NCBI RefSeq assembly: GCF_021531055.1 | Contig: NZ_JADYTL010000001.1 | Coordinates: 372,001 to 436,000 of the forward strand | From: Collinsella tanakaei | GTDB lineage: Bacteria; Actinomycetota; Coriobacteriia; Coriobacteriales; Coriobacteriaceae | DNA length: 64,000 nt | Direction: 5' to 3' | In this document: positions 5,282 through 30,532 of the stretch, in pieces | Layout of the letters: the number at the start of each line of letters is the position of its first letter | Numbering within the stretch: the stretch's first letter is position 1 | Translations under genes and position numbers: made by a program | Notes under the pieces: generated by a model | The model's database searches: none | Told to the model about the DNA's origin: nothing | What the model saw: the letters and a program-made list of their open reading frames with translations, nothing else

Positions 5282-6244
5282 TCACCGCTGTTCAACCGGC
5301 ATTTCGCATCGAATGACGGTTTCCCAATCTTCCGGAAAACCCATCGGTTTCAAGGAGACCGATGGGTGGGCTCTCACGACCTCAACGATCTGACCGGTCA
5401 AACACCCCCATTTTGCCGGCCAAGATTTCTCGTACATGCGCTTAAGCACGAGAAGCGTCGGGAATTCTTTCTCCCCGTCGTATCGAGCATCCGCCCTAAG
5501 AAGATTGGGCCGTACGGTCACAACGCGGTTGTACAGACGGCTGTGATGTCCACAGATATTTCGGATGTACGTTAGATGTCTGAGCCAGCTCCTAAGGATG
5601 AACGGCTTCACTCCGAACCCATTGGCAACCAGCTTTGCAACGTTACTTTTGGCGGCATCCAGATTGCCGTAGAGCTGGGAGACGGTTCCCATGCTCATGA
5701 TTTCGACTGCCGCCCATATGGGAAGATCGCCGTATTTATCGATATTATGGACGACACACGGCACCCCATCGCGCAACGCCCTGCTCTTCTCCCTTGTGAG
5801 GGACTCCATGGATTTGGCGTGCGCCATCGTGTTCTTAAAGTAACGGTTATCTTCATGTGCGACCGCGCCGCATTCCATAGCCATATGGTAAGCGAAAAGC
5901 GTGCGCGCCTTGATCTCGATGGGACTGATGACGCGCCAAACCCAATCCCTCAGCTCACCATCGAACTGATAGGTCTCCCATATGTCATCGAACGTGGTAC
6001 CCGGAGTGAAGCGTCCATTCTCCTCGAAGGTAAGCCAGTAACCACGAAGGCGATAATAGTTCGATTCTGCGAGACGCCGAAGCGCGGACAGCTCGTTTTC
6101 GACCGCGAGACCGCGGGACTCCATCAGGGAGAGCTGCTCCCTGAACGAACGCGGAGGTTTCATCGAGATAAAAAACGACCCCGCCTGGTTCGCTCCATTT
6201 CCATGGGTCGCGTGCGGGGTACTGTCATCGAGCATTCTACCCAT
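5282..6244 (-). CDS. Abi family (Abi_2/AbiD-AbiF) abortive infection protein
   Basis: This 320-residue protein resembles the Abi_2 family of anti-phage abortive-infection proteins, which are HEPN-type RNases. Family marks include an N-terminal helical block (SFREQLSLMESRGL, then LRRLAESNYYRLRGYWLTF) and the HEPN catalytic pattern R-x4-H near residue 226 (RNICGHHSRLYNR). The first in-frame start is a TTG at 6262, but GGAGGGG lies inside those codons. ATG 6244 has that Shine-Dalgarno at ideal spacing, so it is chosen. The gene looks less GC-rich than its neighbours and sits between two copies of the 3' end of another gene, which suggests acquisition. Its target is unknown and no partner antitoxin is visible. 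Confidence 0.85.
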   Translation of the reverse strand: MGRMLDDSTPHATHGNGANQAGSFFISMKPPRSFREQLSLMESRGLAVENELSALRRLAESNYYRLRGYWLTFEENGRFTPGTTFDDIWETYQFDGELRDWVWRVISPIEIKARTLFAYHMAMECGAVAHEDNRYFKNTMAHAKSMESLTREKSRALRDGVPCVVHNIDKYGDLPIWAAVEIMSMGTVSQLYGNLDAAKSNVAKLVANGFGVKPFILRSWLRHLTYIRNICGHHSRLYNRVVTVRPNLLRADARYDGEKEFPTLLVLKRMYEKSWPAKWGCLTGQIVEVVRAHPSVSLKPMGFPEDWETVIRCEMPVEQR

Positions 6245-6363
6245 CGTGGCCCCTCCATTCAATACCGCCTATCGATTGCTCGGCATCATACTAAACAACG
6301 GGACGATATGCGCGTTTGCCCAAGTGGGATCCTGCTGGGGCACCGTCGGAAGCTCCGTGCGCC

Positions 6364-9132: not shown

Positions 9133-9271
9133 GTAAATCCCCTCAAAACGACACAAGCCTCACCTATGGTAACTGAAAAAGAAATGAATAACCCATCAGG
9201 GTTGGACAACGCGTGTATCTTGACGTCTCTCACATATCCTAATCAGCGACAGCGTGGTTAACCTACATAAG

Positions 9272-17500: not shown

Positions 17501-18343
17501 GGAGTTCTTGACGGTCAAGCCCTCCTCGCCCTCGGCGCGGGAGGCAAACGTAGCGGAACCACCCGCATCGAGCTCGAGCACCTTTACGCACCCGGCGTTT
17601 GCCATCATCTGAGCGATCTCGGTATTCGGACGACCATGGGAGGTCGGAGCGAAGTTACCATGGCTCGTGACCGTCAGGATGCTACCGTCCTCCCTGATGC
17701 CAATCGCGCAACGGGAGTACGTGATGTTTTGGAAGCCGTCTTCGGGCAAAGGAAGCGGCTTTCCGTCCTCGACAAGCAGCGAGTTGCCACCGACCGCCAT
17801 CTGAAGATCGGAAAGGTCGCTCGAATTGCGAATAACCGGCTCTCCGTCTTTCGTAATGCCGAAATACCAGCGACCGTTATTGGGATGGCAGACCTCACCC
17901 TCCATGACGAGAGCACCCATGGGCTCACCGGTGGCCATATTGAAGAAGTCCGCATTGATGGCGGCAACCACGGTCTTCCCCGGATTATCCCGCTCATAGG
18001 CCTTCGCCTGATCGGTAGTGCGAGTCAAAGACCACTCATCGGCGCTGTTTTGACCATAGCCCGCGACGATCTCGATATCGTCTTCAGCCAAATCGACTTC
18101 GGCGAAGTACTCGATATTCTGATGATCTCCGCTTGCCCTGTTCGCAACGACTTCGTGCTGGACAGCGCCGTTAGCAAGCGGCGTGACCGTATCGCTTACC
18201 AACACCTCGTTGTTTGCAATACCCGTCCAGGCATTCGCTCGCTGAGATGCGAACGCTTCATGCAACCCCGCTCCGCCGAGACAGGCCGATAAGCAAGCGA
18301 CCGTCCCGACGAGAAGAGCGGCGAATCGCCTTCTTCTCCGCAT
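11591..18343 (-). CDS. Giant secreted phosphodiester glycosidase / metallophosphatase with FN3 repeats
   Basis: This 2250-residue exported protein begins with a basic signal peptide (MRRRRRFAALLVGTVACL). Residues about 95-300 match the phosphodiester glycosidase (NAGPA, uncovering enzyme) fold: AAINADFFNMATGEPMGALV, GITKDGEP, and LELDAGGSATF. Ig-like/Big-type and carbohydrate-module-like regions follow. A calcineurin-type metallophosphatase with a purple-acid-phosphatase-like N-terminal FN3 unit lies at about 1040-1400 (VIGDIQDQ, QTGDASDD, ALGNHEYTGD, FTHQPPYF, FSGHDHS). After one wall-binding-like repeat come seven FN3-like repeats (about 1610-2250). Start ATG 18343 follows GGAGGG; the in-frame extension to 18481 has no support. 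It likely acts on phosphodiester-capped sugars outside the cell. Two very long plus-strand frames over it are shadows. Confidence 0.85.
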   Translation of the reverse strand: MRRRRRFAALLVGTVACLSACLGGAGLHEAFASQRANAWTGIANNEVLVSDTVTPLANGAVQHEVVANRASGDHQNIEYFAEVDLAEDDIEIVAGYGQNSADEWSLTRTTDQAKAYERDNPGKTVVAAINADFFNMATGEPMGALVMEGEVCHPNNGRWYFGITKDGEPVIRNSSDLSDLQMAVGGNSLLVEDGKPLPLPEDGFQNITYSRCAIGIREDGSILTVTSHGNFAPTSHGRPNTEIAQMMANAGCVKVLELDAGGSATFASRAEGEEGLTVKNSPRDGAERYVSSSILIVSSSTPTGEFDHASLSPNNEAYTPGSEVAFTAKGVDTAGAPTDLPEGIAFQLADSSKELGTIDASTGVFKAGDQEGTVTVETTLDGSVVGSTTIEIVKPDEIYFASDEVNLGFNETSDLGVVVRSEKREINYNDGDLIWTISDPALGSFEGNLFISSNGSDLHGTATVVSKWDDSVRGEVKVNVGVQPTIVWDFEDVESESGEITSAEDYYIGTEENPGILSHSNYGRGGNESIEIVSIDDDEPVRFNEKSLKLNYDFTQCGEVTEGACIGTSEEFEIPGTPTGIGVWVYAPEGVGIEYEGDGSQAGFWLRGYVVDGAGNTQPYDFTLEPKNAAVSSGEEQPGIYWEGWKYLEADLTHLQAPYKIPASMTLRLMYVAGTKMGTKSANSIYFDNLQFVYGANDDDVDSPVIDSIMLNDVELEDGATIDTNVVNITTAFHDVENDFTSGIDPATVRLQIDGVNVLDNDKYEAAYDESVNRAYLYECELLDGPHTVTVSMKDAFGNDASMTRHFTVDTGAADSQASVSVQPTSENAVIGKTVALEIRGSGATINKSDISISLGNRFPDYEVTFAQGYEGTSSYGKLTRTVSIEAERQPDAVTDDNLIATLIVDIPTNLKDGDVFNYTVKSSSFETSDGAYGTFAESEKELPIVAPLTISADRTLQGKEVTIKVTDTDGNPVEGAEISKTETGELVGTTDAEGKLVTDAFSAEAGNTVIVAKKGEEYSFEFTVSVYGAQGDETGKPDGIRFNVVEDPATQKSIGWLSSPVAEGKQVLRYAVKGSDAWTTVDAEGEQVYFSKNGNSSAIANSVVLEGLAPETTYEFSVGAEGAMSDTREFTTSASDPTSHSFFVIGDIQDQDRTNIETIIEQLGAGSYDFGAQTGDASDDPTLYEDWPVLGNLFGDPSLKGTEVISALGNHEYTGDADGSIASAIYHNDTTAPGSYWSVQYGDLYIAVMNYANNAAQMREAAAWLEQDANASNAKWRVLFTHQPPYFTNSTGGNDIVYEILPDAIDKAGIDAVFSGHDHSATRTNPLKAGEQDEKGTVYYICGSTGGKEYSITSQGKFDYDKIFALATIDYSATYLTVSISGDTMTVDINDIQNGVIDSFEIGSKCHEPQLDVESGTVSCSRCGKVIENYTGSIKDADGNSYYFLSGKMQTGWVLIGQDYHFYADNGVEEKVTVKDELKSTCVIQGYTVYESESGSEKRVEGDVASGHEYEKQEDGSRVCSVCGWKYADLNDCDITLSNDGVSVYTGTPRKPIVTVTAPDGTVLTQTGEGKDYFTTYMYNDVVKIGKASFKLTAYKYGMYVDVNDWRGDCGGERIVTFDIVPPAPENAVLIKSDTSRATLRWDDAVVNGKEVADRYVVYVSDDGGKTFDEKGTTTSNSYTVTGLKPGVSYKFRIGSRCVVDGETFDSKTQAVPTYLKPTIAASFDEDGKPVLSWTGIDGVEYEIWRATGSGNFTKIDTTDGSRYVDSSARAGVTYRYKLKAIKGSDRVFSEVRTFECGCAKPTATVTSRFDGKPVIRWNKLDGAVKYEVYRSTSGVDGTFNLLYTGSGQVLTNSSAKAGTKYYYKVRGVTAAGRRGAFSDTVSITGEAARVEIEFSYRASDGYPTVSWSKVDGAARYEVWRSTKRVGSYRLISTTSGSKLTNVSIDEGTLYYYKVRPVASNGTTKGTFSNIVSGKFMGTEIVLEVSYRESDGVPVIEWNKVPGAAKYQVYRSTSGKTGTFNRLITTAGQKLINTSAKPGTTYYYKVRAVSKKGTLGAFSENISAMRDPSMAKPDVAIANRISDGKPKLTWKAMSGATGYVVYVSTTGVDGEFTQLFAGKGTVLSHTSAQEGVDYAYKVQATFADGQTSSMSDSVSASVVPVKIELQGTNRESDGVPVLTWNKVDLAEKYEVWRSEDGEDGKFEKVISTVGIKLTNVSVERGVTYTYKVRAVDADGATGGYSNTVDVTVG

Positions 18344-18513: not shown

Positions 18514-18550
18514 AAAAAAGGCCGTGCCCGCAAACGCGGACACGGCCTTT
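18514..18550 (-). terminator. Terminator at the end of the wall-polymer operon
   Basis: On the minus strand AAAGGCCGTGTCCGCG / CGGGCACGGCCTTTTTT makes a strong GC hairpin followed by a T-run, about 20 bases past the L,D-transpeptidase stop. It closes the operon starting at 30532. Confidence 0.9.
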
Positions 18551-18571: not shown

Positions 18572-20590
18572 TTAGAACTTCGACTTGTAAATCTGAACCG
18601 TAGTACCGGGCTTGATATTGTCGTAAATCCACTTTGCATTGTTGATGTTCAAGCGGATGCAACCGTGGGAAATATCGAGACCCAAACGATTATCCATATG
18701 GGAGGTGTTGCTGTACGGATAATACAGCGTAGAGTGGAACAGAACACCCTTGTGGATACGGGTCCACCACCAAGCCGTGTAGCCAGAGGACTCGCCGAAG
18801 TGCTCGCCGTGGTCGCTCGTAGCATAGGTGCCGAAGATCTCCATGCCCGGCATGCCCGTAGAGCAGCGCCAGTAATTGTTGGTCAGGTTCCAGCTGCCGT
18901 CATCATCCCTGGCAAAGACGCCAACGTAATGAGATCCCGTATCGACGAGGATAACGTAGTTCGTATCGCTGGTAAGCTTCTGAGCCTTCACGACCATATT
19001 GACGCGGGCGTCAAGCTCACCCAGTCCGTTGCTGCCGAAATCAACGCGAACGCCATCGACAATATGCGAACCGGTATACAGAATGCCATTGGAACCGGAA
19101 TAAGAGACCTTATCGTTCTTCCAAGTCAGCCAACCGGTGTGATAGGTGCCATCGGAGTTGAAGAAATAAAAGTTTCCGTCAACTTTCCATTTGCCGGAAA
19201 GGGTCTTGCGGGTGGTAGTACGGAAGTAATAACGTTTCCCACCGATGGACCACCAGCCCTTTGCCGCAGCACGATCCGTGCTCGTCGCAAAATAAGAACG
19301 GCTGTTGTCGTCCCAGATATACCAGCCCTTGATTGCCAGACGGCCGTCGTTGAAGAAATAGACCTTGCCGTCGATAGTCCAACGACCCTTAGCTGCTGCG
19401 AAACTCGTGTTGTCAGCAAAATAGGACTTCGTTCCGTTATCCCAATTCTTCCAGCCGGAAATGGCAAGACGATCGCCATCGAAGAAATACAGCCTGTCGT
19501 CGATCCACCACTTGCCGAGCGCCGCAGCACCCTTGTTGTTCTTAGCATAGTACGTGCGATGATCCGCCGACCAACCGATCTGCGCACTACCATCGCCAAG
19601 GAAGTTGTACAGCTTGTTCGAAATCCACTGGCTGCCCTGCAGAGTCAGACCGGTATTCACATCAAAGTAGTAATACTTACCGTCGAGAATCCACCAGTTC
19701 TTGGCAGCAGCGCCATTCCTGTCAGCGGAGAAATAATACCGAGTTCCATCAGCGAGAGGATCGGACCAACCGGTAACCTTGTTGTAGGTCTCCTCATCGA
19801 TGAAATACAGAGAGCCGTTGGACTCGACAAGTCCGGTCTGGGCATAGCCGTCGGCACCGAGATAATATTGGACCCCATTGATCTCGACGACGGTATTTTG
19901 AAGGGGGGTACCGTCGTTCTTGACGAACTTGACGCCGTTCTCGTCCTTGACCAGCTTACCGTCGGAGTTGGAGCCGATCTCCTCTTCGACAACCTCATTG
20001 ACCGTGGACTCATTAACAGTCTCGGCGGTAGTCGAATCGTCCTGAACGTTCGTGTCACCGGAAAGAGCGTTATCTCCTGCAGGCTCACTCGGAACAGTCG
20101 TCAGGGAATCATCGTCCGCCGGAATCGTCGGAACGGATTCCGACCCTTCCTCCACCGGCAGACCATCCTCTACCGGGGTGCCGTCGGAAACTCCACCGTC
20201 TCCCTCAAGCTCATTGCCGTCGGCCAGCGAACCGCCTTGAGACGGGGTCCCAGGACCTTTGTCCCCCGCAAGATTGTCAGAGGTCTCATCATTTTGCGGC
20301 GTCGACGGAACGGAGTTGATCTCGGAATCCTCGTTGCCACCGCCAGATTCGACAGTGCTCTCGACCACAACACTGGAGCCAGTGGACTCCTGCGGCTGCG
20401 ATTCCGTCCCATTGATGACATTGTTGTCAGAGTCGGAAAGCTCCTGAATCTCAACAGGTGTGTCCTGCTGTCCCGACAACCCGGCGTTTACCGCCGAAGG
20501 GGTCGCCAATGCCACCCCCGGTGCAAAGCAAGTCGCAGCAATCAACGCAGCTGTACAGCTCAGCACCCCCCGCTTATACAAACGAACCAT
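18572..20590 (-). CDS. Secreted L,D-transpeptidase with wall-binding repeats
   Basis: This 672-residue protein has a signal peptide (MVRLYKRGVLSCTAALIAATC), then an acidic Ser/Thr/Glu-rich linker of about 180 residues. Several wall-binding repeats (GAAAKNWWILDGKYYYFD type) follow. The C-terminal YkuD domain ends with the catalytic SHGCIRLNI motif near residue 643, with HKGVLFHSTLYY shortly before it. Such enzymes make 3-3 cross-links in peptidoglycan or attach proteins to it. The gene starts 32 bases after the stop of an ATP-grasp gene, and GGAGGG precedes ATG 20590, so it is probably the last gene of the wall-polymer operon; a strong terminator follows. Confidence 0.9.
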   Translation of the reverse strand: MVRLYKRGVLSCTAALIAATCFAPGVALATPSAVNAGLSGQQDTPVEIQELSDSDNNVINGTESQPQESTGSSVVVESTVESGGGNEDSEINSVPSTPQNDETSDNLAGDKGPGTPSQGGSLADGNELEGDGGVSDGTPVEDGLPVEEGSESVPTIPADDDSLTTVPSEPAGDNALSGDTNVQDDSTTAETVNESTVNEVVEEEIGSNSDGKLVKDENGVKFVKNDGTPLQNTVVEINGVQYYLGADGYAQTGLVESNGSLYFIDEETYNKVTGWSDPLADGTRYYFSADRNGAAAKNWWILDGKYYYFDVNTGLTLQGSQWISNKLYNFLGDGSAQIGWSADHRTYYAKNNKGAAALGKWWIDDRLYFFDGDRLAISGWKNWDNGTKSYFADNTSFAAAKGRWTIDGKVYFFNDGRLAIKGWYIWDDNSRSYFATSTDRAAAKGWWSIGGKRYYFRTTTRKTLSGKWKVDGNFYFFNSDGTYHTGWLTWKNDKVSYSGSNGILYTGSHIVDGVRVDFGSNGLGELDARVNMVVKAQKLTSDTNYVILVDTGSHYVGVFARDDDGSWNLTNNYWRCSTGMPGMEIFGTYATSDHGEHFGESSGYTAWWWTRIHKGVLFHSTLYYPYSNTSHMDNRLGLDISHGCIRLNINNAKWIYDNIKPGTTVQIYKSKF

Positions 20591-20622
20591 CTCTCATCCC
20601 TCCAAGGATTTATAAAATGCAC

Positions 20623-21939
20623 CTACTGTGCATTTTTCAACGAATCCCATTTCTTCTGCAGGCCACCATGGGCGAGTTGCGCCATGCGGGTGCACGGCTT
20701 GGAATTGATCTCGAGGATAACCGGACCGTTTTCGGTCAACGCGATATCCCAACCGATAATGACCATGCCGCGGAAATACTCATGGAGCTCGACGACCATC
20801 TTCATGATCTGGTCCCAATACGGAATCTCATAACCCTCGTAGACGGTTCCGGTAACAGGATGGGCGGTCTCTCCCTCTCCACGATAGAAGTAGTGTCCGT
20901 ACTTCATAAGTTTACCGGTATTCTCGTCGATACCGACAAACGTACCGCCCTGCGTCGCGTTGTCCACCGACGAGTCCGCGCGCGATGCCATGCGCAGCAG
21001 CGCATAGAACACGTGCGCCTTTTTGTGATAACGAAGCGTGACGATGCGAACGGTATTAACGCTGTTGGGACAAAGATTCGAAATGGCCGGATGCTGATGA
21101 ACGAAATCCTGCAAAATATACGAACCATGATTCATGTCATTGATGAAGTCCTCAATGGAGTCATGCCCATTGTTAAGAAGAACCTCATCCCCCGGACCAC
21201 GGTCGACACGATAAAAGCCTTTTCCGAACGCTCCGTTGAGCTGCTTGCACGCATACGTACCCTCAGGCAACTTACAAAGAGCGTCCTCGATCGACATCCC
21301 GGACTCATACGGCAAAATGACATCTCCGTCACGGAAAACGTAGATCATCTTGGGGGTAAGACCCGGACAAATCGCCTGCATGTAGGAATAGAACCACATC
21401 TTGTTGATAGCCATCATCCGATAACGCTCGGGAATGACATTTCCATGATGGGGCGCACTGTTATACCGCACGTACTCATAGCGCTCGATGTAATCATCCT
21501 GATTACGGAAGTTGGCGACATCGAGTCCGAACTCGTTATAAAGCTTGTTGTAAAACCCATGCTTCTTGCGCCAGAGCATGTTGTCGAGCATACGCTCGTT
21601 GCGAGGCTTACGAGGCCTATCTGGGAAATAGGAATCCGCGTCGACGATTCCAAGGAGAATCTTGCTATCCCGCAATGCCTTGCGATACCACGAAGGGGAA
21701 AGATTCTCTTTGAGATAAGCGGCTTCTTCAGAGGAAATGCCTTCGGGGATAACGAGCTGCTTAGGCTGAGACTTCGGATCGTAAAGGCGCTTTTTCACAT
21801 AATCGCGAGATCCGATGCCCTTTTCGCGCTTGGCGCGACGAATCTCACCCAGAGCATGGAAGTAACTCCAGCCCGTTTCCTTTGCGACGTACGACGCCCT
21901 ATCGTGAATTCTCCTTGCTTTAGTCAAGACTGAAGACAT
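20623..21939 (-). CDS. Sugar-transfer-associated ATP-grasp family ligase
   Basis: This 438-residue cytosolic protein resembles the ATP-grasp enzymes linked with surface-sugar transfer (PF14397-like). ATP-grasp marks include ACKQLNGAFGKGFYRV, the NSVNTVRIVTL strand, GGTFVGIDENTGKL, and the C-terminal metal-binding segment GWDIALTENGPVILEINSKP. It is expected to form an amide or similar bond using ATP, possibly adding an amino acid to a wall sugar, but the substrate is not known. ATG 21939 has AAGGAG at good spacing; the track-like extension upstream has none. It lies between the GH25 and L,D-transpeptidase genes with gaps of 62 and 32 bases, so it is likely co-transcribed with them. Confidence 0.8.
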   Translation of the reverse strand: MSSVLTKARRIHDRASYVAKETGWSYFHALGEIRRAKREKGIGSRDYVKKRLYDPKSQPKQLVIPEGISSEEAAYLKENLSPSWYRKALRDSKILLGIVDADSYFPDRPRKPRNERMLDNMLWRKKHGFYNKLYNEFGLDVANFRNQDDYIERYEYVRYNSAPHHGNVIPERYRMMAINKMWFYSYMQAICPGLTPKMIYVFRDGDVILPYESGMSIEDALCKLPEGTYACKQLNGAFGKGFYRVDRGPGDEVLLNNGHDSIEDFINDMNHGSYILQDFVHQHPAISNLCPNSVNTVRIVTLRYHKKAHVFYALLRMASRADSSVDNATQGGTFVGIDENTGKLMKYGHYFYRGEGETAHPVTGTVYEGYEIPYWDQIMKMVVELHEYFRGMVIIGWDIALTENGPVILEINSKPCTRMAQLAHGGLQKKWDSLKNAQ

Positions 21940-22001
21940 CAGCACTTGCTCCTTTCGACATGGCGAACAATGAGTCCAATCGAACCGCAATCTCATTCAT
22001 C

Positions 22002-23546
22002 CTATAGCTCACGAGAGCTTATGAGAACCCCCGTATCCGAGAACGTGTATTCAATCGTACCAATAATATGAACACCCGTATATGCGCGGAAGGTCTCTGT
22101 ATCGAAATAATAACGTGAGCCCGACAGCTTCCACCAGCCCTTGGACGCGGCGCCCTTGTAGTCGGAGGAGAAGTAGGACCTGGTGCCGTCGGCCCACTCG
22201 TGCCAGCCGACCGTGGCGGCGCCGTCGTCGCCGAACAGGTAGAGCCTGCCGGCGATCTCCTGCTCGCCGGTGAGCGTGCGGAAGGTCTCGGGGTCGAAGT
22301 AGTAGTACTTGCCCGACAGCTTCCACCAGCCCTTGGACGCGGCGCCCTTGTAGTCGGAGGAGAAGTAGGACCTGGTGCCGTCGGCCCACTCGTGCCAGCC
22401 GACCGCGGCCGCCCCGTCGTCGCCGAACAGGTAGAGCCTGCCGTCGATCTCCTGCTCGCCGGTGAGCGCATATCCGTCAGAGCCGAAATAATAGAAACGT
22501 CCCTTATGCTCGAGCATCTCATCGGCAGCAAACTCACCAGAGGGATATTGGTATCGAATGCCGGCATCAGTAACGACAAGCTTCCCGTCCCCGTAGCTCA
22601 GATTCATATCCACCGGGCCGGAGATGCCGGCAACCTTGCCGTTGCTCATGCACTGCCACATGGAGTAATCGCCCTTGTAGTCGCACTCGGTATAGTACTG
22701 GGCGACCCACCGATCCCACTGGTCGTACGCGGGGTCGGTCAGGTAGGTGTTCCACCAGTTAAGGCTGGCGTAGATACCGGGCTCATACCCTGCGTCCTCG
22801 ATGGCCTCGCAAAAGATCTTGGCCATCTTGAGCAGCGTGGCGTTCGAGGGGCGCGACGGCTCGTCCTCCAAGTCGTAATATACCGGGAACGCCAGGTCGT
22901 CGGGCGTGAGGCCGGCCTCCTTGAGCAGACGCAGGACGTGCTTGGCCTCGCTTTTGGCATGGGTCGTGTTCTCGCCGTACGAATACAGGTACACGCCGAA
23001 CGGGATGCCGTACTTTTGGCATCCGCGCACGTTGTCGATGAACTTCGAGTCGTCCTGATCGGGGTCATCCAAACCATACCCGCAGCGCAGGATCGCATAG
23101 TCCACACCTGCGTTTTTAACCTTGCTCCAGTTGATGTCGTCCTGCCATTCAGAGACATCGATACCGATCGCCGTGGCGCGCGAGTCCACGATGCCGTTGC
23201 TAAAACGGTAGGCGCCGTCCTTGTAGGACCAGGTGATCAGGCTGTCCGCGCGCGACGACAAAAGCGAGATGCCGTCCTCGTCTCCCCCGTTCGTGACGGG
23301 CGCACCGTCTTTGAACCTGAAGCTGTTGGCGTACTTGCCGGTCGCGGCATCGTACTCGGCACCGGGAACAGGGGCGCTGTTGTCATCTGTTCCGTCGGAC
23401 TCGTCCTCCGCAACGTCGACTTCCGCCTCCTGGGCCTCGGTCCCCTGGGGCTCCTCTTCCGCCCACACGGGAGCGGCGGTCGCACACGGTACCGCACACG
23501 CGACGGCGAGCATCGCCACCGCGATCGTCCTGTTCAAACGCTTCAT
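22002..23546 (-). CDS. Secreted GH25 lysozyme with wall-binding repeats
   Basis: This 514-residue exported muramidase has a signal peptide (MKRLNRTIAVAMLAVACAV), an acidic linker, a GH25 domain (about 120-325) and C-terminal wall-binding repeats. GH25 marks are GIDVSEWQDDINW near 127, the acidic pair in VYYDLEDEPS near 222, and the closing VDMNLSYGD. It cuts the glycan backbone of peptidoglycan. The repeat region contains an almost exact 157-bp DNA duplication at a 192-bp period. GGAGCG precedes ATG 23546. The gene lies 60 bases after the exporter ATPase in the wall-polymer operon, a sign that wall turnover is coordinated with polymer export. Confidence 0.92.
   Translation of the reverse strand: MKRLNRTIAVAMLAVACAVPCATAAPVWAEEEPQGTEAQEAEVDVAEDESDGTDDNSAPVPGAEYDAATGKYANSFRFKDGAPVTNGGDEDGISLLSSRADSLITWSYKDGAYRFSNGIVDSRATAIGIDVSEWQDDINWSKVKNAGVDYAILRCGYGLDDPDQDDSKFIDNVRGCQKYGIPFGVYLYSYGENTTHAKSEAKHVLRLLKEAGLTPDDLAFPVYYDLEDEPSRPSNATLLKMAKIFCEAIEDAGYEPGIYASLNWWNTYLTDPAYDQWDRWVAQYYTECDYKGDYSMWQCMSNGKVAGISGPVDMNLSYGDGKLVVTDAGIRYQYPSGEFAADEMLEHKGRFYYFGSDGYALTGEQEIDGRLYLFGDDGAAAVGWHEWADGTRSYFSSDYKGAASKGWWKLSGKYYYFDPETFRTLTGEQEIAGRLYLFGDDGAATVGWHEWADGTRSYFSSDYKGAASKGWWKLSGSRYYFDTETFRAYTGVHIIGTIEYTFSDTGVLISSREL
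22120..22468. repeat. 157-bp near-identical tandem duplication, 192-bp period
   Basis: Bases 22120-22276 and 22312-22468 differ at only 4 of 157 positions by hand alignment. They encode the GEQEI-GRLYLFGDDGAA-VGWHEWADGTRSYF part of two adjacent 64-residue wall-binding repeats. The flanking outer repeats are much more diverged and use less GC-rich codons. Confidence 0.9.
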
Positions 23547-23606
23547 AAGCTTACGCTCCAATCCCCGACCGAAAGGCGCCGACCATGCGCATACGCGCAC
23601 TCGACC

Positions 23607-24395
23607 CTACTCGACGCCCTCGTCGTCGCCAGCATAGAATTTCATGGCTTCCTCGATCGTGCCGCTAAAGACGGCGTGACCGTGCTCCAGCACGATGCCC
23701 TTTTCGCAGAACACCTCGGCCATCTTGAGGGAGTGGGTCACAAACAGCACGGTCACATGCCCCTCCTCCATGATGGAACGCACGCGGCGGCGGCACTTGA
23801 GCGAGAACTTGCGGTCGCCCACGGCCAGCGCCTCGTCCACCACGAGGATGTCGGGCTTCATGGACGAGGTCACGGCAAAGCCCAGGCGGGCGCGCATGCC
23901 GCTCGAGTAAGTGCGCATCGGCTGATCGATGTACTTGCCCAGCTCGGAGAACTCGATAACCTCGGGCTCCATGGCGTCGATCTCGTCGTTTTCCAAGCCC
24001 CAGATCTGTCCGCGCAGCCGGATGTTCTCGCGGCCGGTCAGGCGCATGTCAAAGCCGGCGGAAAGCTCCAGCAAGGCCGACACGCGACCATGGACCTCGA
24101 TCGAGCCCTTGGTGGGAAAGCACACGCCGGTGATCATCTTGAGCGCCGTGGACTTGCCGGCGCCGTTGTCGCCCAGAAGCGCGACCGACTCGCCGCGGTT
24201 CACGGTGAACGTCAGATCGTCGCTCGCGTTGATGGTGTCGCACTTGACCTTGCCGGTGATGGCGTGGGCCAGACGGTGCCGATCGCTGCGGAACAGCTTG
24301 TAGGTCTTGGTCACATGCTCGAAGCGCACCGCGATGGGGTTGTCCACATCGCGGTCGCGGATCACCGAGGTGACGGGGGCCGCCTTAGAGAACAT
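23607..24395 (-). CDS. ABC transporter ATPase, teichoic-acid/polysaccharide export (TagH-like)
   Basis: This 262-residue ATPase subunit has Walker A GDNGAGKST near 70, the YSSGMRARLGFA signature and Walker B DILVVDEALAVGD. That wording (SSGM, ALAVGD) is typical of TagH/RfbB/Wzt exporters of wall polysaccharide rather than uptake systems. It lacks the long C-terminal carbohydrate-binding extension found in some Wzt proteins. ATG 24395 has GAGGAGG upstream and overlaps the permease stop by 11 bases, so the two are translationally coupled. It powers export of the polymer made by the upstream genes of the same operon. Confidence 0.92.
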   Translation of the reverse strand: MFSKAAPVTSVIRDRDVDNPIAVRFEHVTKTYKLFRSDRHRLAHAITGKVKCDTINASDDLTFTVNRGESVALLGDNGAGKSTALKMITGVCFPTKGSIEVHGRVSALLELSAGFDMRLTGRENIRLRGQIWGLENDEIDAMEPEVIEFSELGKYIDQPMRTYSSGMRARLGFAVTSSMKPDILVVDEALAVGDRKFSLKCRRRVRSIMEEGHVTVLFVTHSLKMAEVFCEKGIVLEHGHAVFSGTIEEAMKFYAGDDEGVE

Positions 24396-25191
24396 CGGGT
24401 ACCTCCTCGCGCAGACGGCGGTAATTGCGCACGGCCAGCAGGATGACCGCCACGAACACCACGGCGAACACGACGGTCTCGCCATGGTTGCACCAGATCC
24501 AGTCGTCGTAGACGAAGCAGTCGCGGAACGCCTGGACGAACCACGCCACGGGGTTGATCCACATGACGCGCTGGATCTCGATGGGCAGCGTGTCCAGGTG
24601 GAAGATGATGCCCGAGATCCAGAACAGCGGCGTGGACAGCGTGCGCAGCAGGTTGGCGAAGTCCTTGGACATGGCCGAGAGCGGCGAGCACGCGATGGAA
24701 AACGCCGTCCAGAACACGAACATGATGAGCAGCAGCAACGGCCACTGCAGCACCTTGATCGTCAGCGGGATCTGGAACACCACGCACGCGCCGGTGATGA
24801 TCAGGAGTTCTGCGGTCAGGATGATCATCAATGACAGCACGTAGAACGTCGAGATCACCGAGAGCGGAAAGCGGATGCGGTTGACCAGGTACGAATAGCG
24901 CCGGTACACGTCGCCGCCCGTGCTGATCATGGACTGCATCAAAAACCACGGCAGCACGCCCGAGGCGAGCCACAAAAGATAAGGCTTGCCGTCGACCGGC
25001 TTACCCGAACGCATGCCGAGTGACAGCGTGAACCAGAACACGAAGATGTACATCGCCGGGCGCGCGAACAGCCAAAACCAGCCGAGTGCGGCGCCGCGAT
25101 ACGTCTTGACCAGGTCGGTGAGCGCCAGATGCCAGGTCTGACGGCGCATCTCCCAGTTCTCACGAAGGATCTGAACAAACGTTGACAGCAT
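24385..25191 (-). CDS. ABC-2 type permease, wall-polymer exporter (TagG-like)
   Basis: This 268-residue integral membrane protein has about six hydrophobic segments and the ABC-2 signature layout: an N-terminal cytosolic helix (LTDLVKTYRGAALGWFW), VLPWFLMQSMISTGGDVYRRYSYLVNRIRFPL, and a late LFWISGIIFHLDTLP segment before the last membrane helix. It pairs with the overlapping TagH-like ATPase downstream. AGTAGGAACGT precedes ATG 25191. A second, divergently placed TagG/TagH pair occurs at 31443-33069. Confidence 0.92.
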   Translation of the reverse strand: MLSTFVQILRENWEMRRQTWHLALTDLVKTYRGAALGWFWLFARPAMYIFVFWFTLSLGMRSGKPVDGKPYLLWLASGVLPWFLMQSMISTGGDVYRRYSYLVNRIRFPLSVISTFYVLSLMIILTAELLIITGACVVFQIPLTIKVLQWPLLLLIMFVFWTAFSIACSPLSAMSKDFANLLRTLSTPLFWISGIIFHLDTLPIEIQRVMWINPVAWFVQAFRDCFVYDDWIWCNHGETVVFAVVFVAVILLAVRNYRRLREEVPDVL

Positions 25192-25197
25192 ACGTTC

Positions 25198-25800
25198 CTA
25201 CTTCCTGTTGCGGATAAAGGAGAGGTATTCGTCGGGTGTGTTGAAGTCGGTGGTCGCGTCCTCGATGAACACGAAATCGTCGGCGATCGCCTTGCCCGCG
25301 AGCTCCATCCCCAGATACCGGTGGTAGAGCTGCCAGCCCTTGCAATCGTCGATCTTGCCGGCCACGATATTGCGTCGCAGCTCGTCCAGCAGCTGGCGCA
25401 CATACCCGGGATTGAGCATCTTGACCGCGAAGATACGGCCGGCGTTACCGAAGAACAGCATGTCGTGCGAGGTCGACGTGCGGCAGATCGTGCGGATGGA
25501 CTCCTCGGTGTAATAAGCGTCGCCGTACAGGTAGCAGCACGGACGGTCGAGCAGCTCGGGCACGAAGCGGTCGATCTCGAGGTCGCGCACGGGAGGCGTG
25601 TACAGCTGCGCGCCCTCGACGGCGTAGCGCTCGTCATGCGCCGAGATGATCACCTCGGCATGCGGGTCTTGCGCATGCACGAGGCGCACCGTGCGCGCCA
25701 GCAGCGACTCGCCCTCGGTAATCTCGACCAGGTGCTTGGGCTTGCCGAGGTAATTGCCCCATCGGCGCGCCTCACCGTTAGCCATAATCACATATCGCAC
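25198..25800 (-). CDS. Nucleotidyltransferase-like protein (NTP_transferase family)
   Basis: This 200-residue cytosolic protein begins VIMANGEARRWGNYLGKPKHLVEI, close to the G-x-G-x-R...K-P-K signature of sugar-nucleotide and CDP-alcohol nucleotidyltransferases. It carries a later YLYGDAYYTEESI segment where the family binds metal. In this operon it may make the activated precursor (a CDP- or NDP-linked unit) used by the glycerophosphotransferase-family enzyme; that role is inference. The likely start is GTG 25800 behind GGTAGG. Gaps of six bases on both sides show operon membership. It is shorter than full sugar nucleotidyltransferases. Confidence 0.7.
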   Translation of the reverse strand: MRYVIMANGEARRWGNYLGKPKHLVEITEGESLLARTVRLVHAQDPHAEVIISAHDERYAVEGAQLYTPPVRDLEIDRFVPELLDRPCCYLYGDAYYTEESIRTICRTSTSHDMLFFGNAGRIFAVKMLNPGYVRQLLDELRRNIVAGKIDDCKGWQLYHRYLGMELAGKAIADDFVFIEDATTDFNTPDEYLSFIRNRK

Positions 25801-25806
25801 GTGAAC

Positions 25807-26859
25807 CTACCGTATAACATCATGCGCGCGGTAGAAGTCTCCCAACTCCCCCTGGCGCTGTCCACCCCATATCTGGATGATGTTAACACCCGAGGACGCG
25901 TTGGCCTCAATTACCGTAAAACCCTCATCGGTGATCAGGATGTCCCATGCCACGAACTCCAAGAACGGGAAATGCGTGGCGAGTTCCACCACCCCGTCGC
26001 GGACCGCGGCCCAGTTGGGGATCCGCGCGCCCTCGATGGCGGCACCGGTATCGGGGTGCACCGACAGGTGGACGTCGGCCTGGATGCTGCGGGCCTCGGA
26101 CAGCTCGCCGGTCGCGAGGTCGATCTTGGCCACAAGGCCGCCCTTGCTGCCGTTGTCCACCGGGATCGTGGACTCGGTGCCGATGCGCAGCACCGCGAAG
26201 AACATGCGGTAGGTCCCGGTCGCGCGGTCGCGCATGGTGATGGCGCGCACCGTGTTGCTCGCATGCGGGAAGATGCCGTTCAAAAACGTCCCCTGCTGCG
26301 CGAAGGCGCAGATGTGCCAGTCGTCGCCCGACAGCTGCTCGAGCATGTCCTGCTGCGAGACGGGCTCGTAATCGACCGTATAGCTCGTGCCGTCATGGCC
26401 GAGCAGGTGCACACCTTTGCCCTTGCCCGACGAGATGGGCTTGATGAACACACGGCCGCGCCGGCGGATCTCGGCGAGCACGTCGTCGTGGGTCGCCCAA
26501 CGCTGCGGCGCGGCGGGGCACGCGATGTGGCCCTTCTGGGTAAAGAACAGCACCTCGGGCACGGTGGTGTGGGGCGTGAGCATCTGCGCGCACATGACCT
26601 TGTTGTTGAGCATCACGTCGTAGGGCTCGTTGATAACGCGGGAGCGGTACCAATCGAACTCGGACAGGTATTGATCGCGCGTGCCCTCGTCCAACTTGTA
26701 GAGGACCACCTGATCGCACATGTAGCCACCGCACACGGCCCACTTGATGCGCTCGAACAGGCTGATCTTGAAGTGGTTCGGCGCAAAGAGGATGCGAAAC
26801 ACCCACAGGTAGGCGAACTTGAGGTGTTTGATGACAAAGCGGTAGATCTTCCTGATCAT
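25807..26859 (-). CDS. Sugar-transfer-associated ATP-grasp family ligase
   Basis: This 350-residue cytosolic protein has an ATP-grasp core: RRGRVFIKPISSGKGKGVHLL (nucleotide loop), FPHASNTVRAITM, GSKGGLVAKIDLATGELSEA, the TGAAIEGARIPNW segment, and the metal-binding end FVAWDILITDEGFTVIEAN. It is a relative of the products at 20623 and 27983. ATG 26859 overlaps the upstream glycerophosphotransferase stop by four bases (ATGA), so the genes are translationally coupled. It probably ligates an amino acid or peptide-like group to a precursor or polymer in this pathway; no substrate can be read from the sequence. Confidence 0.8.
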   Translation of the reverse strand: MIRKIYRFVIKHLKFAYLWVFRILFAPNHFKISLFERIKWAVCGGYMCDQVVLYKLDEGTRDQYLSEFDWYRSRVINEPYDVMLNNKVMCAQMLTPHTTVPEVLFFTQKGHIACPAAPQRWATHDDVLAEIRRRGRVFIKPISSGKGKGVHLLGHDGTSYTVDYEPVSQQDMLEQLSGDDWHICAFAQQGTFLNGIFPHASNTVRAITMRDRATGTYRMFFAVLRIGTESTIPVDNGSKGGLVAKIDLATGELSEARSIQADVHLSVHPDTGAAIEGARIPNWAAVRDGVVELATHFPFLEFVAWDILITDEGFTVIEANASSGVNIIQIWGGQRQGELGDFYRAHDVIR

Positions 26860-27986
26860 GCGATATCAAGCCTCTCACGAATCATGGAAACGATGCGCTC
26901 GGTGGAATGGCCGAGATCCTCGGGCGGCAGCACGTACTTGGCGCGATACGCCTCGAACTCGGCTTCGGGATAGGGCTCGTCGAGCGAGCGGGCGAGCTGC
27001 TCGGCGTCGGTATACACGCACGACGGCATGGATGTGCGCGGATCGACGTTCAGGCCGTTTTTTGCGATGTAGCTTTCGATGTCAAAGCAGTAGTACAGCG
27101 TCTTGACGGGCACCGAGGCGGCCTCGACCGCCACGGCGGAATAGTCGGTGACCACATAGTCGCTCACAAGGAGCAGCTCGAGCGTGGAAAAATCGGGCGC
27201 GAGGTACACCATGCGGTCGTTTAAGGCGATGGGCTTTTGGTTGGGGTGCCGACGGAAGATCACGGCGTTGCGCGCATCGTCGGACAGCGCCCGCACGAGC
27301 GCGGCGGCGCCCTCGTTCAGGCCCGCACGGAACGTGGGCACGTACAGGACGATGCGACGGCCGCGCAACTCGGGATAGGCGGCAAAGAACCGCTCGCGGA
27401 CCCGCTCGCCCTCGGTCTGCAAAAAGTCGAAGCGAGGCAGGCCCACGTTGGCGATCGTGTCCTCCGAGATGCCGAACGACGCGCAGTAGAACGGGTTCCA
27501 CGCCTTGGCGCCGGCGATCACGATGTCGTAGCCCTTGTGCATCCTGAGTTCGCGCGCAACGAACGCCGAATGGCCCATATCGCGGTCGAGCGTCTGATAC
27601 CCGGACTGCTTGATCTTGCCCGCGGCATGCCAGATCTGGATCACGAGGAGGCCGTCGCGATGATGCAGGATCGAGGTCGCGGGCCAGTAGCTGTTGAGTA
27701 CGCAGACGCGCGAGGTGGCCAAATAGTACATGCTGCGCACGAACGCCCACGAATAGCGGAAGCGCGAGGCGAGGTCCTTGTCCGAGCGGCAGCAGATGAC
27801 CACGCACTCGGGCGCATGCGGCAGCTTTTCCAGCTCATCGATGATGAGCTGGAAATCGAACTGCATCGAGTTGCCCTGACGGCTCAAGAACAGCACGCGG
27901 TCGCCATGCTCGCGTGTCACGGCCTTCATGACCGCGTACACCGCGTTGAGCACCGCGCGCATGAGCCTCAGCGCGAGGACTTTCAT
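26856..27986 (-). CDS. CDP-glycerol glycerophosphotransferase family protein
   Basis: This 376-residue membrane-associated enzyme belongs to the TagB/TagF family that transfers glycerol-phosphate (or ribitol-phosphate) units to teichoic-acid chains. It has the family motifs VIQIWHAAGKIKQSGY (catalytic His), VLYVPTFRAG, RRHPNQ and VSDYVVTDYSAVAVEA. It is shorter than full TagF polymerases, so it may be a primase-like or side-chain enzyme. ATGA overlaps link it to both neighbours. It is the best evidence that the locus makes a teichoic-acid-like phosphopolymer. Confidence 0.9.
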   Translation of the reverse strand: MKVLALRLMRAVLNAVYAVMKAVTREHGDRVLFLSRQGNSMQFDFQLIIDELEKLPHAPECVVICCRSDKDLASRFRYSWAFVRSMYYLATSRVCVLNSYWPATSILHHRDGLLVIQIWHAAGKIKQSGYQTLDRDMGHSAFVARELRMHKGYDIVIAGAKAWNPFYCASFGISEDTIANVGLPRFDFLQTEGERVRERFFAAYPELRGRRIVLYVPTFRAGLNEGAAALVRALSDDARNAVIFRRHPNQKPIALNDRMVYLAPDFSTLELLLVSDYVVTDYSAVAVEAASVPVKTLYYCFDIESYIAKNGLNVDPRTSMPSCVYTDAEQLARSLDEPYPEAEFEAYRAKYVLPPEDLGHSTERIVSMIRERLDIA

Positions 27987-30532
27987 GCGTCTCGCCTCGG
28001 GAGCTTGAACAGGCTGTGATTGTGCTCGATGTCGCAGAAGCGCTTCTTGTCGGCGATCTTCATGAGCAGGTAGTCGATGGTCTCGGGCGTCAGGCGTGAG
28101 ATGCGCGGGTAATCCGGGTAGCGATTGACCTCGAGCAGCTTGAAGCCCTGCTCGGTGATGGCCACATCGAAACCCATGTACTCGAGCTGCGGGACGGACG
28201 CCGCGATCTTGAGCACGCGCTCACGGATGTAGTCCCAATGCGGCAAGGTGCCCTCGATGAGCACGCCGGTGTCGGGATGGTTGCTCTCGAACACGATGCG
28301 GTTGTCCACGAGCGTACGGGCGTTGCCGTAGTGCCCGGTCGTGACGTCCACCTCCGCCACGAGGCCGCCGGCGACCACGTTGTCGACCGCGCCGGTGCGC
28401 GTGGAGCCGATGCGGAAGTAGGCGTTGCCGATCTGCGGATGCACGCCGTCCTTCTTGAACACCGTGACGCGCACGCTGTTGACCGCACCCGGGTAGATCT
28501 CCTTGAGCTGCGGGTGCAGCTCAAGGTACTCGGTCACGAGGTACTGGTTGTTGGGATCGCGCAGGATGGAGACGACGTGGTCCTCGGTCGTGGGCTCGCC
28601 GTTGAGCTTGTAGGCACCGTCTTCGTAGCTCAACTTGTAGAAGCCCTCGCCGTGCGAGCCCTCGTCGGGCTTGAGGGCGAGCACGCCGAGCTCGCGCGTG
28701 AGCCGCAAGATGTCCTCGATCGTGTTGCCGTAGCCCTCGGGGCAGTCCATCATGGGCACGATGCGGTTCTCGCCGGCGCGGCAACTGGTGAAGTAATAGT
28801 ACGCGGGCAGATTTTCGCCGAACTCGGACAGCACGTACTTGATGGTGATCTTGTCTTCCATCCACGCACGGTACTTGGGGTTGATGTGGCGCAGCCAGCG
28901 GTACTCGAAGTCGGTCACGAACGACTGCCAGTTGTCCTCCCCCAACTCGGGATATAGATCGAGGCGATACGAGAGGAAGCCGTGGCGATAGCCCCACAGC
29001 TTGCGCGACAGCTTGATGCCGTTGCTCGAGAACAAGTCCTCGATGACGTCATGGGGGTAGCGCAGGCCCTGGTAGTACACCATGCCCGCCGGGAACAGAA
29101 GCTTGGTGAACGAGCGGCGCCACCGGAGGAACGCCGCATGGCTCACGCGCTGGCGCGCCTCGGAGCGGCCGAGCTCGCGCTTGTCGGCGGCCTTCTGCTT
29201 GAGGAAGGCCTGGACATCTGCAGGCAGTGGGAACGCGCGGTTGAACGACGGGAACGAGTTCAGGCGCACGACCGCGAAGCCGTCCTCGAAGCTGCGGATC
29301 GACATCTCCAAAAACTCCACCTGCGGCATGCGCTTCATGTACGCGACCACGTAGGCCATGATCTCGTCCCAATGCGCGACCGTGCCGCGGATCTTGAGGT
29401 CCGTGCCGTCGAAGGTCTCGACATCGCGGTAGTTGCCGTAGGGCAGCATGGCACGGGCACCGTCGAAGGCGCCGTCCTCAAGCGAGATCGGGGCCGCATA
29501 GTAGCGGATGGGGTCTTGCTGCTCCTGCTCCTCGGACTCGGCGTCCTGGAGCTCCTCGGCATCGAGCATCTGCTCGCCCACGCGCTCGACCTGATCCTCA
29601 TCCATATCGGAGGCCTCGCGGGCAAGGATGCGCATGTAGGCGTCGGCGACGAACGGATCGTTGCCGAGGGAGTTGCACAGCGTGAGGCGGATACTGCCGA
29701 ACAGGTTCTTGTCGCATCCCTCCTGCAGGGCGGCAAGTGAGGCGTCCTTGGGCGCGACCTCGTAGACCACGAGCGGCACGCTGGCGGCGCGAAGGGAGAT
29801 GCGCTCGAGCAGCTCGTCGGCCGTGATCGTATCCTCCCCGCGCACGAAGCGCTTGCCGTCAGGCTCGATGCGCAGCGAGTAGCGCGACGACCAGGCGGAG
29901 CCGGTCACGCTCAGGTTGCACTCGGGACGCGCGCCCAGATCGCGGCAGAAGGCCAGAAAGCCGTCGCGGTCCACGGCGCCGTCGTGTGCGTAGGCGCGCG
30001 CCTCGTCGGACAGCGGGATAAACAGCAGCTCACCGTTGCGCGAGATGATGTTGAAGTGCATGGTCTCGAAACGCTCGGCGAGCGGACCTGCGACCAAACG
30101 CGACGTCACGCGGTCGTCGACCCACTTACCGTAGCGACCGCTCATGGGAAACAGCAGATCGTACTCGCGCTCGGACAGACACGTCGAGGCGTCGAGCGCA
30201 TCGACGTCGAAGCGACGAACCTGGTTGACGGAAAAACCGCGCTTGTGGGCGCTGCGAACGTCGGATGACGGAACGGTGCGATGGCGCCAGTCGGAGCGCG
30301 TACGACGGATCCAGGTGCGCGCACCCCTGAGCGAAAAGCCCTCGGAGCACATGGACAGCAGACGGACGCGGTTGACCTGGCGCTTGACGAAGCGGACAGG
30401 CGAAGGGCCGGACTTCTTGTCTTCGTCCTCGAGCCCGAGCTCCTCTACGGAAGCATCGTCGGCGGCAGCGATATCGGCGCGATTGACGTCGTCTTCACGC
30501 TCGTCAATCGAGGAATTGTTCCCGGTTTCCAA
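27983..30532 (-). CDS. Large double-module ATP-grasp protein, first gene of the wall-polymer operon
   Basis: This 849-residue cytosolic protein is much larger than its two ATP-grasp neighbours. The C-terminal module (about 480-830) has a full ATP-grasp layout: YRAWMEDKITIKYVL, LALKPDEGSHGEGFYKL, GAVNSVRVTVF, GGLVAEVDVTTGHYGNA, GTLPHWDYIRERVL, and YMGFDVAITEQGFKLLEVN. The N-terminal module (about 120-450) repeats the outline (YGKWVDDRVTSRLV, GTVAHWDEIMAYVV, FLEMSIRSFEDGFAVVRLN) but lacks the glycine-rich nucleotide loop, so it looks like a decayed duplicate. No ATG fits; TTG 30532 has GAGGGGGG just upstream and is chosen. Substrate unknown. Confidence 0.75.
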   Translation of the reverse strand: METGNNSSIDEREDDVNRADIAAADDASVEELGLEDEDKKSGPSPVRFVKRQVNRVRLLSMCSEGFSLRGARTWIRRTRSDWRHRTVPSSDVRSAHKRGFSVNQVRRFDVDALDASTCLSEREYDLLFPMSGRYGKWVDDRVTSRLVAGPLAERFETMHFNIISRNGELLFIPLSDEARAYAHDGAVDRDGFLAFCRDLGARPECNLSVTGSAWSSRYSLRIEPDGKRFVRGEDTITADELLERISLRAASVPLVVYEVAPKDASLAALQEGCDKNLFGSIRLTLCNSLGNDPFVADAYMRILAREASDMDEDQVERVGEQMLDAEELQDAESEEQEQQDPIRYYAAPISLEDGAFDGARAMLPYGNYRDVETFDGTDLKIRGTVAHWDEIMAYVVAYMKRMPQVEFLEMSIRSFEDGFAVVRLNSFPSFNRAFPLPADVQAFLKQKAADKRELGRSEARQRVSHAAFLRWRRSFTKLLFPAGMVYYQGLRYPHDVIEDLFSSNGIKLSRKLWGYRHGFLSYRLDLYPELGEDNWQSFVTDFEYRWLRHINPKYRAWMEDKITIKYVLSEFGENLPAYYYFTSCRAGENRIVPMMDCPEGYGNTIEDILRLTRELGVLALKPDEGSHGEGFYKLSYEDGAYKLNGEPTTEDHVVSILRDPNNQYLVTEYLELHPQLKEIYPGAVNSVRVTVFKKDGVHPQIGNAYFRIGSTRTGAVDNVVAGGLVAEVDVTTGHYGNARTLVDNRIVFESNHPDTGVLIEGTLPHWDYIRERVLKIAASVPQLEYMGFDVAITEQGFKLLEVNRYPDYPRISRLTPETIDYLLMKIADKKRFCDIEHNHSLFKLPRRDA

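Follow-up and report, generated by a model that had tools for sequence, protein, structure and literature searches.

A candidate gene core for a surface phosphopolymer with amide-linked groups in Collinsella tanakaei

Introduction

Teichuronopeptide (TupA) of alkaliphilic Bacillus is a wall polymer with peptide. The Collinsella tanakaei operon described here differs from that system in having a phosphotransferase-based core. It shares with the teichoic acid (Tag/Tar) systems a TarL/TagF-type phosphotransferase (P2) and a TagH-like exporter ATPase (P6), but it encodes one PF04464 protein instead of a primase and a polymerase, it carries four ATP-grasp domains, and TagD was not found. An amide is formed in the capsule of C. 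jejuni by the TupA-like ATP-grasp domain of Cj1438 (PMC11800379). Like the C domain of Cj1438 (PMC11800379), the ATP-grasp proteins considered here are encoded among surface-polymer genes. The families nevertheless differ, TupA-like PF14305 there and PF14397 in the operon, and no glucuronate pathway was recognized in the operon. A search for PF14305 at E 0.01 gave no match in the nine operon proteins, while the family is present beside the core in one related genome (G230). Archaeal pseudomurein clusters combine ATP-grasp and Mur-type ligases for a wall polymer (PMC11915815). The operon differs from them in its TarL/TagF-type transferase and ABC exporter, and the MurF-like gene is unlinked to it in this genome.

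Our literature search found no paper with PF14397, ATPgrasp_ST, or the full name of the family, and none of the papers listed first for coriobacterial cell walls reports the structure of a wall polymer. We know of no characterized PF14397 protein. Neither Collinsella nor Coriobacter is mentioned in the main text of a 2025 review on gut surface polysaccharides, and, at the level of titles and listings, the gene combination of the operon was not found described. Passages of PMC12419801 (lipocone) gave no lead on the operon.

Results

A nine-gene operon in the window

We analyzed a 64-kb stretch of DNA (the window) from genome G000 (2.23 Mb; completeness, 98.45%). A minus-strand run of nine genes, P1 to P9, extends from 30532 to 18572 (Table 1). 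The preliminary description had counted ten genes in an operon reaching from 30532 to a terminator; the run, the short gaps, the overlaps, and the terminator all hold, and the number of genes is nine. P1 starts with a TTG at 30532, with GAGGGGGG upstream. The pairs P1/P2 and P2/P3 overlap by 4 bases each, and the gaps downstream of P3 are, in order, 6, 6, -11, 60, 62, and 32 bases. Better starts were chosen for P6 (24395, by its ribosome-binding site), P7 (23546), and P8 (21939).

Table 1. Genes of the operon, its terminator, and the next gene downstream (window positions)
Feature	Positions	Strand	Evidence or remark
P1, tandem ATP-grasp protein, 849 aa, TTG start	27983..30532	-	PF14397 E 7.6e-34 on C half
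P2, Glyphos_transf (TarL/TagF-type) phosphotransferase	26856..27986	-	PF04464 E 7.2e-40
P3, core ATPgrasp_ST protein, predicted amide ligase	25807..26859	-	PF14397 E 1.1e-36
P4, small nucleotidyltransferase, perhaps cytidylyltransferase	25198..25800	-	PF12804 26.6 bits, cutoff 27
P5, ABC-2 exporter permease	24385..25191	-	PF01061 E 1.3e-13
P6, exporter ATPase, TagH-like	23607..24395	-	PF00005 E 3e-20
P7, GH25 lysozyme-type hydrolase, PF19127 repeats	22002..23546	-	PF01183 E 2.5e-26; PF19127 E 2.3e-14
P8, third ATPgrasp_ST protein, accessory	20623..21939	-	PF14397 E 5.4e-48; lower G+C than P1-P7
P9, L,D-transpeptidase (YkuD), PF19127 repeats	18572..20590	-	PF03734 E 3.1e-11; PF19127 E 1.1e-16
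Intrinsic terminator of the operon	18514..18547	-	GC-rich hairpin then T6; -20.8 kcal/mol for the folded stretch
P10, phosphodiester glycosidase (NAGPA) + metallophosphatase + fn3	11591..18343	-	PF09992 E 2.3e-27, PF16656, PF00149

A simple terminator scan of the window listed 15 other sites (11.2 expected), and the hairpin at 18547-18514 was absent from its list. Within P1 to P9 it placed nine minus-strand sites, each inside a gene and none in a gap. The promoter scan of the window found 8 candidates (5.2 expected), with none listed upstream of P1, and a tRNA scan of the window gave nothing informative for the operon. Two small Cro/C1-type helix-turn-helix proteins are encoded divergently upstream of P1 (30632-30925 and 31031-31240, plus strand; HTH_3 E 2.8e-10 and 1.8e-08) and could be regulators of the operon.

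The domain content previously listed was recovered with Pfam: ATPgrasp_ST in P1, P3, and P8, Glyphos_transf in P2, ABC2_membrane in P5, ABC_tran in P6, GH25 in P7, and YkuD in P9. Overall, what the preliminary description observed is partly confirmed, and its interpretation is partly supported by the comparisons that follow. The operon is a conserved core (P1 to P6) followed by a variable, genome-specific tail (P7 to P9).

Three intact ATP-grasp sites and a degenerate copy

P1, P3, and P8 are the sole PF14397 matches in G000, and all three lie above the gathering cutoff of 31.4 bits (117.6, 127, and 164 bits, respectively). In the genus, 42 other genomes were searched, and none has three PF14397 matches over the cutoff; G014 has two and a third, weak match. 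The N and C halves of P1 are homologous (hhalign probability, 100; E 2.2e-44). In the C half, K621, R688, D789, E801, and N803 are invariant in 8/8 rows of an alignment of seven genomes (the fragment in G803 was left out, and G230 is without P1). In P3, K140, R205, D306, E318, and N320 are invariant in 7/7 rows, from the nine genomes with G272 and G803 left out. We take these residues of P1 and P3 to have catalytic roles, after RimK/Ddl-type enzymes. At the aligned positions of the N half of P1, the Glu is present in 1/8 rows, the Asp in 1/8, the Asn in 2/8, and the Arg in 4/8. The N half has thus lost most catalytic residues, so that three of the four ATP-grasp domains in the operon would be intact and one degenerate; the sites of P8 were judged intact by eye only. 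The earlier designation of P1 as a double ATP-grasp protein is therefore right as to tandem homology, with the qualification that the N-terminal copy is degenerate.

The predicted structure of P3 is of low confidence (pLDDT 64.9). RimK and Ddl-type ligases lead its match list, and biotin carboxylases and inositol pyrophosphate kinases (PPIP5K2 and Vip1) stand further down the list of the same poor model, suggesting that ATP-grasp chemistry other than amide formation is possible. No solved structure in the PDB was a convincing match to the profile of P3 or of P1, and an NCBIfam search of P1 returned no family. We predict that P3 and the C domain of P1 are amide ligases of the polymer.

Donor supply, transfer, and export

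The nearest solved structure to P2 is TarL (8va1; E 1.2e-22). In the eight genomes searched for PF04464 and TagD (G803 left out), PF04464 has a single match, P2, in each of G000, G044, and G230, and 2 to 6 matches in each of the other five. This single match implies that there is no primase-plus-polymerase pair in those three genomes; in G000, which is 98.45% complete, a separate PF04464 primase and polymerase were not found. TagD (TIGR01518, a model that covers the CDP-glycerol route only) had no match in G000 at E 0.001. Across the eight genomes, it was over the cutoff in G110 and G186, weak in G351, and not found in the other five. CDP-glycerol, which had been put forward as the substrate of P2, is thus doubtful as the monomer donor, because a TagD-type enzyme was not found in five of the eight genomes, G000 among them.

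The nucleotidyltransferase claimed for the operon is borne out by P4. Its PF12804 score is 0.4 bits under the Pfam cutoff, an NCBIfam search gave no family, and its predicted structure (pLDDT 90.2) has a nucleotidyltransferase fold. The fold matches, by Z, are PntC (17.8), LicC (16.9), GlmU (16.9), and IspD (16.8), with CTP and UTP enzymes within about 1 of each other. P4 is thus alike in fold to LicC and PntC, but the identity is 12-14%, and the scores of GlmU and IspD are close to theirs. The lone PF04464 protein in G000, G044, and G230, together with the five genomes where TagD was not found, suggests that P4 is the likely source of the nucleotide donor of P2.

The exporter had been described as TagG/TagH-like. 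The ABC2_membrane and ABC_tran domains agree with an ABC exporter. The best NCBIfam matches of P6 are teichoic-acid-export ATPase models (TagH E 8.7e-60, below the curated cutoff), and P5 is a generic ABC-2 permease matching the Wzm and KpsM models below cutoff.

P1 to P4 are linked across genera

We compared open reading frames around P3 in the nine genomes of the neighborhood set (G000, G044, G110, G186, G230, G251, G272, G351, and G803). The stretches were the window for G000, the whole contigs for G230 (19.6 kb) and G803 (7 kb), and at least 20 kb for the others; the genes of the relatives were taken as open reading frames picked by script. G044 belongs to another genus of the same family as G000. 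Relatives of P2 and P4 stand beside P3 in all nine genomes having P3, although the P2 relative of G351 is more distant (32%) and on the opposite strand. P1 is at the locus in 8/9 genomes, cut by the contig end in G803, and was not seen on the 19.6-kb contig of G230. Homologs of P1 to P4 are therefore kept together across genera and not scattered without linkage. P5 and P6 are at the locus in 5/9 genomes (G000, G044, G110, G230, and G272), and the run of G044 ends at P6; no exporter was seen near the core in the stretches examined of G186, G251, and G351.

P4 and P1 are in part fused. The only P4 of G186 forms the N-terminus of P1 in one 1050-residue frame (L067:10951-14103), with its motif intact. 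In G272 and G351, a second P4-like domain is fused to P1 with its motif partly lost, and an intact P4 stands alone. The P4 alignment comprised 9 rows from seven genomes, with G044 and G803 left out. In G110, an alanine-dehydrogenase-like protein is encoded between P4 and P1 (L063:12685-13695); we considered this AlaDH/PNT-like protein as an opine-type synthase and dropped the idea since it matched alanine dehydrogenases.

A tree of 29 ATP-grasp domains unites the nine P3 rows in one clade (support, 100/99) and the eight rows of the P1 C domain in another (84/95; 97/98 for the six closest). The sister pairs G000 plus G044 and G272 plus G351 recur in both clades. P8 lies apart from them on a long branch whose placement is unsure, and it has no ortholog at the other core loci, so we rejected it as a core gene. 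The three ATP-grasp families had been taken as one set; they separate into P1 and P3, which belong to the core, and P8, which does not.

Further amide ligases recur near the core

At least one further candidate amide ligase is encoded near the core in 8/9 genomes, and in 5/9 a MurF-like protein is among them. G000 has P8; G044 and G351 each have a CapA-LRR-ATPgrasp_ST protein; G272 has an LRR-ATPgrasp_ST protein and a MurF-like protein; and G110, G230, G251, and G803 have MurF-like-LRR proteins. G230, the genome without P1, also has two TupA-like ATP-grasps and a Ddl. No extra ligase was found in the stretches examined of G186. CapA-LRR proteins without ATP-grasp (G272 and G351) were excluded from this count. 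Across these loci, the MurF-like, CapA, and ATP-grasp enzymes carry fused leucine-rich repeats of a single type (BspA).

MurF itself scored over the model cutoff in all eight genomes searched (G803 left out). A second MurF-like gene, below the cutoff and outside the housekeeping cluster, occurs in 6/8 genomes and is linked to the core in four of the eight (G110, G230, G251, and G272), against 0.07 linked genomes expected (P = 2e-7, post hoc). It is unlinked in G000, and in G186 it lies on a 3.5-kb contig that is too short to show linkage either way; G044 and G351 (the latter 83% complete) gave no such second gene. Weaker murF matches beside the housekeeping gene (E 1e-20 to 1e-36) were set aside as presumed other Mur ligases. 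Ddl matches number 1 to 3 per genome (eight genomes, G803 left out), one of them within the G230 locus. In G000, a MurF-like ligase fused to BspA-type leucine-rich repeats is encoded on contig C9, away from the operon contig (L117:9461-11623), and is 43% identical to the core-side MurF-LRR protein of G251.

The linkage of P1 to P4 and the extra ligases in 8/9 genomes are what one would expect if the polymer carried amino acids or peptides in amide linkage. The earlier proposal of a phosphopolymer with amide-linked groups thus gains support from the comparison.

The tail and the genes beyond it

P7 and P9 have signal-like N-termini (by eye), suggesting secretion, and both carry PF19127 choline-binding-type repeats, which the preliminary description did not mention. 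P9 contains SHGCIRLN, which includes the SHGC-type catalytic motif of YkuD L,D-transpeptidases. GC3 is 0.81-0.89 in P1 to P7, 0.62 in P8, 0.65 in P9, and 0.68 in P10; the overall GC of P8 and P9 is 0.51 and 0.54. P9-type transpeptidase domains (E 1e-8) occur in 19/43 genomes of the genus, G000 included, and 18 of these genomes carry one without a close P3; five of the 19 domain matches contain one in-frame stop. In the eight genomes searched (G803 left out), YkuD matches total 18, with 2 to 3 per genome. Four of the 18 are about 10 kb or less from the core, and these come from 3/8 genomes (G000, G044, and G251; P = 0.0009, post hoc), and the nearest transpeptidase in G272 is about 21 kb from the core. 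We rejected a link between P9 and the core as decisive, given this distance in G272 and the P9-type domains in 18/42 other genomes of the genus. A dedicated coupling of the polymer to wall remodeling had also been proposed. It rests on P7 to P9 and loses ground here, since P8 and P9 have lower G+C and P9-like domains occur without the core.

P10 is the next gene past the terminator and lies outside the operon. It follows P9 in G000, and a relative 64% identical to it stands directly before P1 in G044, so that a glycosidase/phosphatase protein is found near the core in both genomes of the family having the core. Further along the minus strand, the window encodes a transglutaminase-like protein with fn3-type repeats (9401-11413), of low G+C like P8 to P10, and an additional PF19127-repeat protein (6967-9156), downstream of which is an Abi_2 family protein (5282-6262, minus strand; PF07751 E 3.4e-47).

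The core is rare and patchy

Whole-genome searches were made within the genus, order, class, and phylum. A close P3 was found in 1/43 genomes of the genus (G000), ten others giving only partial matches (24-33%). The P3 profile matched 9/395 genomes of the order at E 1e-50 (7/123 genera, G000 included), the P3 query matched 8/396 class-drawn genomes at E 1e-30, and 3/396 genomes of the phylum matched at E 1e-60. The third of the latter, G493, was rejected as a core carrier because its P3 relative is lone and distant. The core is thus rare and patchy, which suggests that it was spread by transfer or lost repeatedly.

Flanks were examined for 8/11 PF14397 genes of the genus that are over the cutoff outside G000. 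They are mostly lone, some lie within sugar-polymer clusters, and one adjoins a TupA-like gene (L126); the PF14397 protein of G020 resembles the C half of P1 (29%). They were rejected as relatives of the operon, since no P2, P4, P5, or P6 relative stood alongside at E 1e-6. A well-conserved ATPgrasp_ST gene is found amid apparent housekeeping genes in five genomes of the genus (L120:7196-8239, L121:7630-8643, L122:8004-9017, L123:7457-8515, and L127:7541-8554), with no P2, P4, P5, or P6 relatives around it.

Discussion

We consider it somewhat probable (roughly 0.55) that P1 to P6 form a core that makes and exports a surface phosphopolymer bearing amino acids or peptides in amide linkage, P7 to P9 being a genome-specific tail. 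We infer the monomer (X), the nucleotide, the amide chemistry, and the order of every step in the following route. From the phosphorylated monomer, X-P, P4 would make an activated nucleotide donor, which is probably CDP-X, and P2 would move X-P from this donor to a lipid-linked acceptor, once or repeatedly, like TarL/TagF-type enzymes. With ATP, P3 and the C domain of P1 would convert a carboxylate to its acyl phosphate and couple this to an amine, by which an amino acid or amino alcohol would be added to X or to the chain; the degenerate N half of P1 may be a scaffold or a binding domain. Strain-specific ligases would then extend or vary the substituent, P8 in G000 and MurF-like, TupA-like, Ddl, or fused ATP-grasp proteins elsewhere. 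The product would be exported by P5 and P6, and the putatively secreted P7 and P9 may trim and cross-link peptidoglycan at the site of deposition.

The core of this reading is compatible with a second one, in which two units are merely adjacent, P1 to P6 making a polymer and P7 to P9 being a separate, uncoupled wall module. The drop in GC3 from 0.81-0.89 (P1 to P7) to 0.62-0.65 (P8 and P9) fits such a division, as do the lack of P8 orthologs at the other core loci, the end of the G044 run at P6, and the P9-type domains of 18 further genomes in the genus that lack a close P3. Against it, the gaps from P6 to P9 are at most 62 bases, none of the terminator-like sites of the scan falls in a gap, and transpeptidases lie about 10 kb or nearer in 3/8 genomes despite only 2 to 3 in each (P = 0.0009, post hoc). 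Adjacency without coupling is a tentative possibility that we take seriously, if below even odds.

Two other accounts give the ATP-grasp proteins another part. Their task may be to produce or activate the monomer, as kinases, say, or in building an amino acid or a peptide for P4 to couple to a nucleotide, and they would then not be amide ligases of the polymer. The fusion of a nucleotidyltransferase to P1 puts an ATP-grasp beside nucleotide activation, the kinases PPIP5K2 and Vip1 are among the matches of the P3 model, and PMC11915815 proposes that L-Glu is phosphorylated by an ATP-grasp enzyme from pseudomurein clusters en route to a UDP-activated form. We nevertheless regard a role in monomer activation as unlikely, as RimK and Ddl-type ligases top the list of P3 matches (from a poor model) and other amide-ligase families recur at the locus. 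The locus could also be an ordinary teichoic acid or capsule cluster working on CDP-glycerol or CDP-ribitol, to which the ATP-grasp proteins add a minor decoration. P2 does match TarL and P6 the TagH models; G186 and G351 encode DltA-like proteins (under the cutoffs of the DltA models) no more than about 30 kb away from the core, as does G272, judging by a similar start; and LCP genes are near the core in G110 and G230, with an LCP-like frame in G272. Such a cluster seems improbable to us when TagD was not found in 5/8 genomes, PF04464 is single in 3/8, and P3 and P1 are nearly as constant at the locus as P2. An extension of the preferred reading, an amide-bearing phosphopolymer, would be a second murein-like peptide system, in which parallel peptidoglycan-type ligases (the ATP-grasp proteins, a MurF-like-LRR ligase, and, in one relative, also Ddl) would build a peptide on the phosphopolymer, possibly on a nucleotide carrier through the nucleotidyltransferase-ATP-grasp pair; through this peptide, L,D-transpeptidases would join the polymer to peptidoglycan by a peptide bond, replacing or adding to the usual LCP phosphodiester. 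This we hold to be a long shot.

On sequence grounds, the operon contains a real, uncharacterized, patchily spread biosynthetic core with changing amide-ligase partners. The conserved set of phosphotransferase, ATP-grasp, double ATP-grasp, and nucleotidyltransferase would provide an entry to phosphopolymers bearing amino acids or peptides, and a function for PF14397 members would follow. If the peptide serves attachment, it would be a new way of anchoring a polymer to peptidoglycan.
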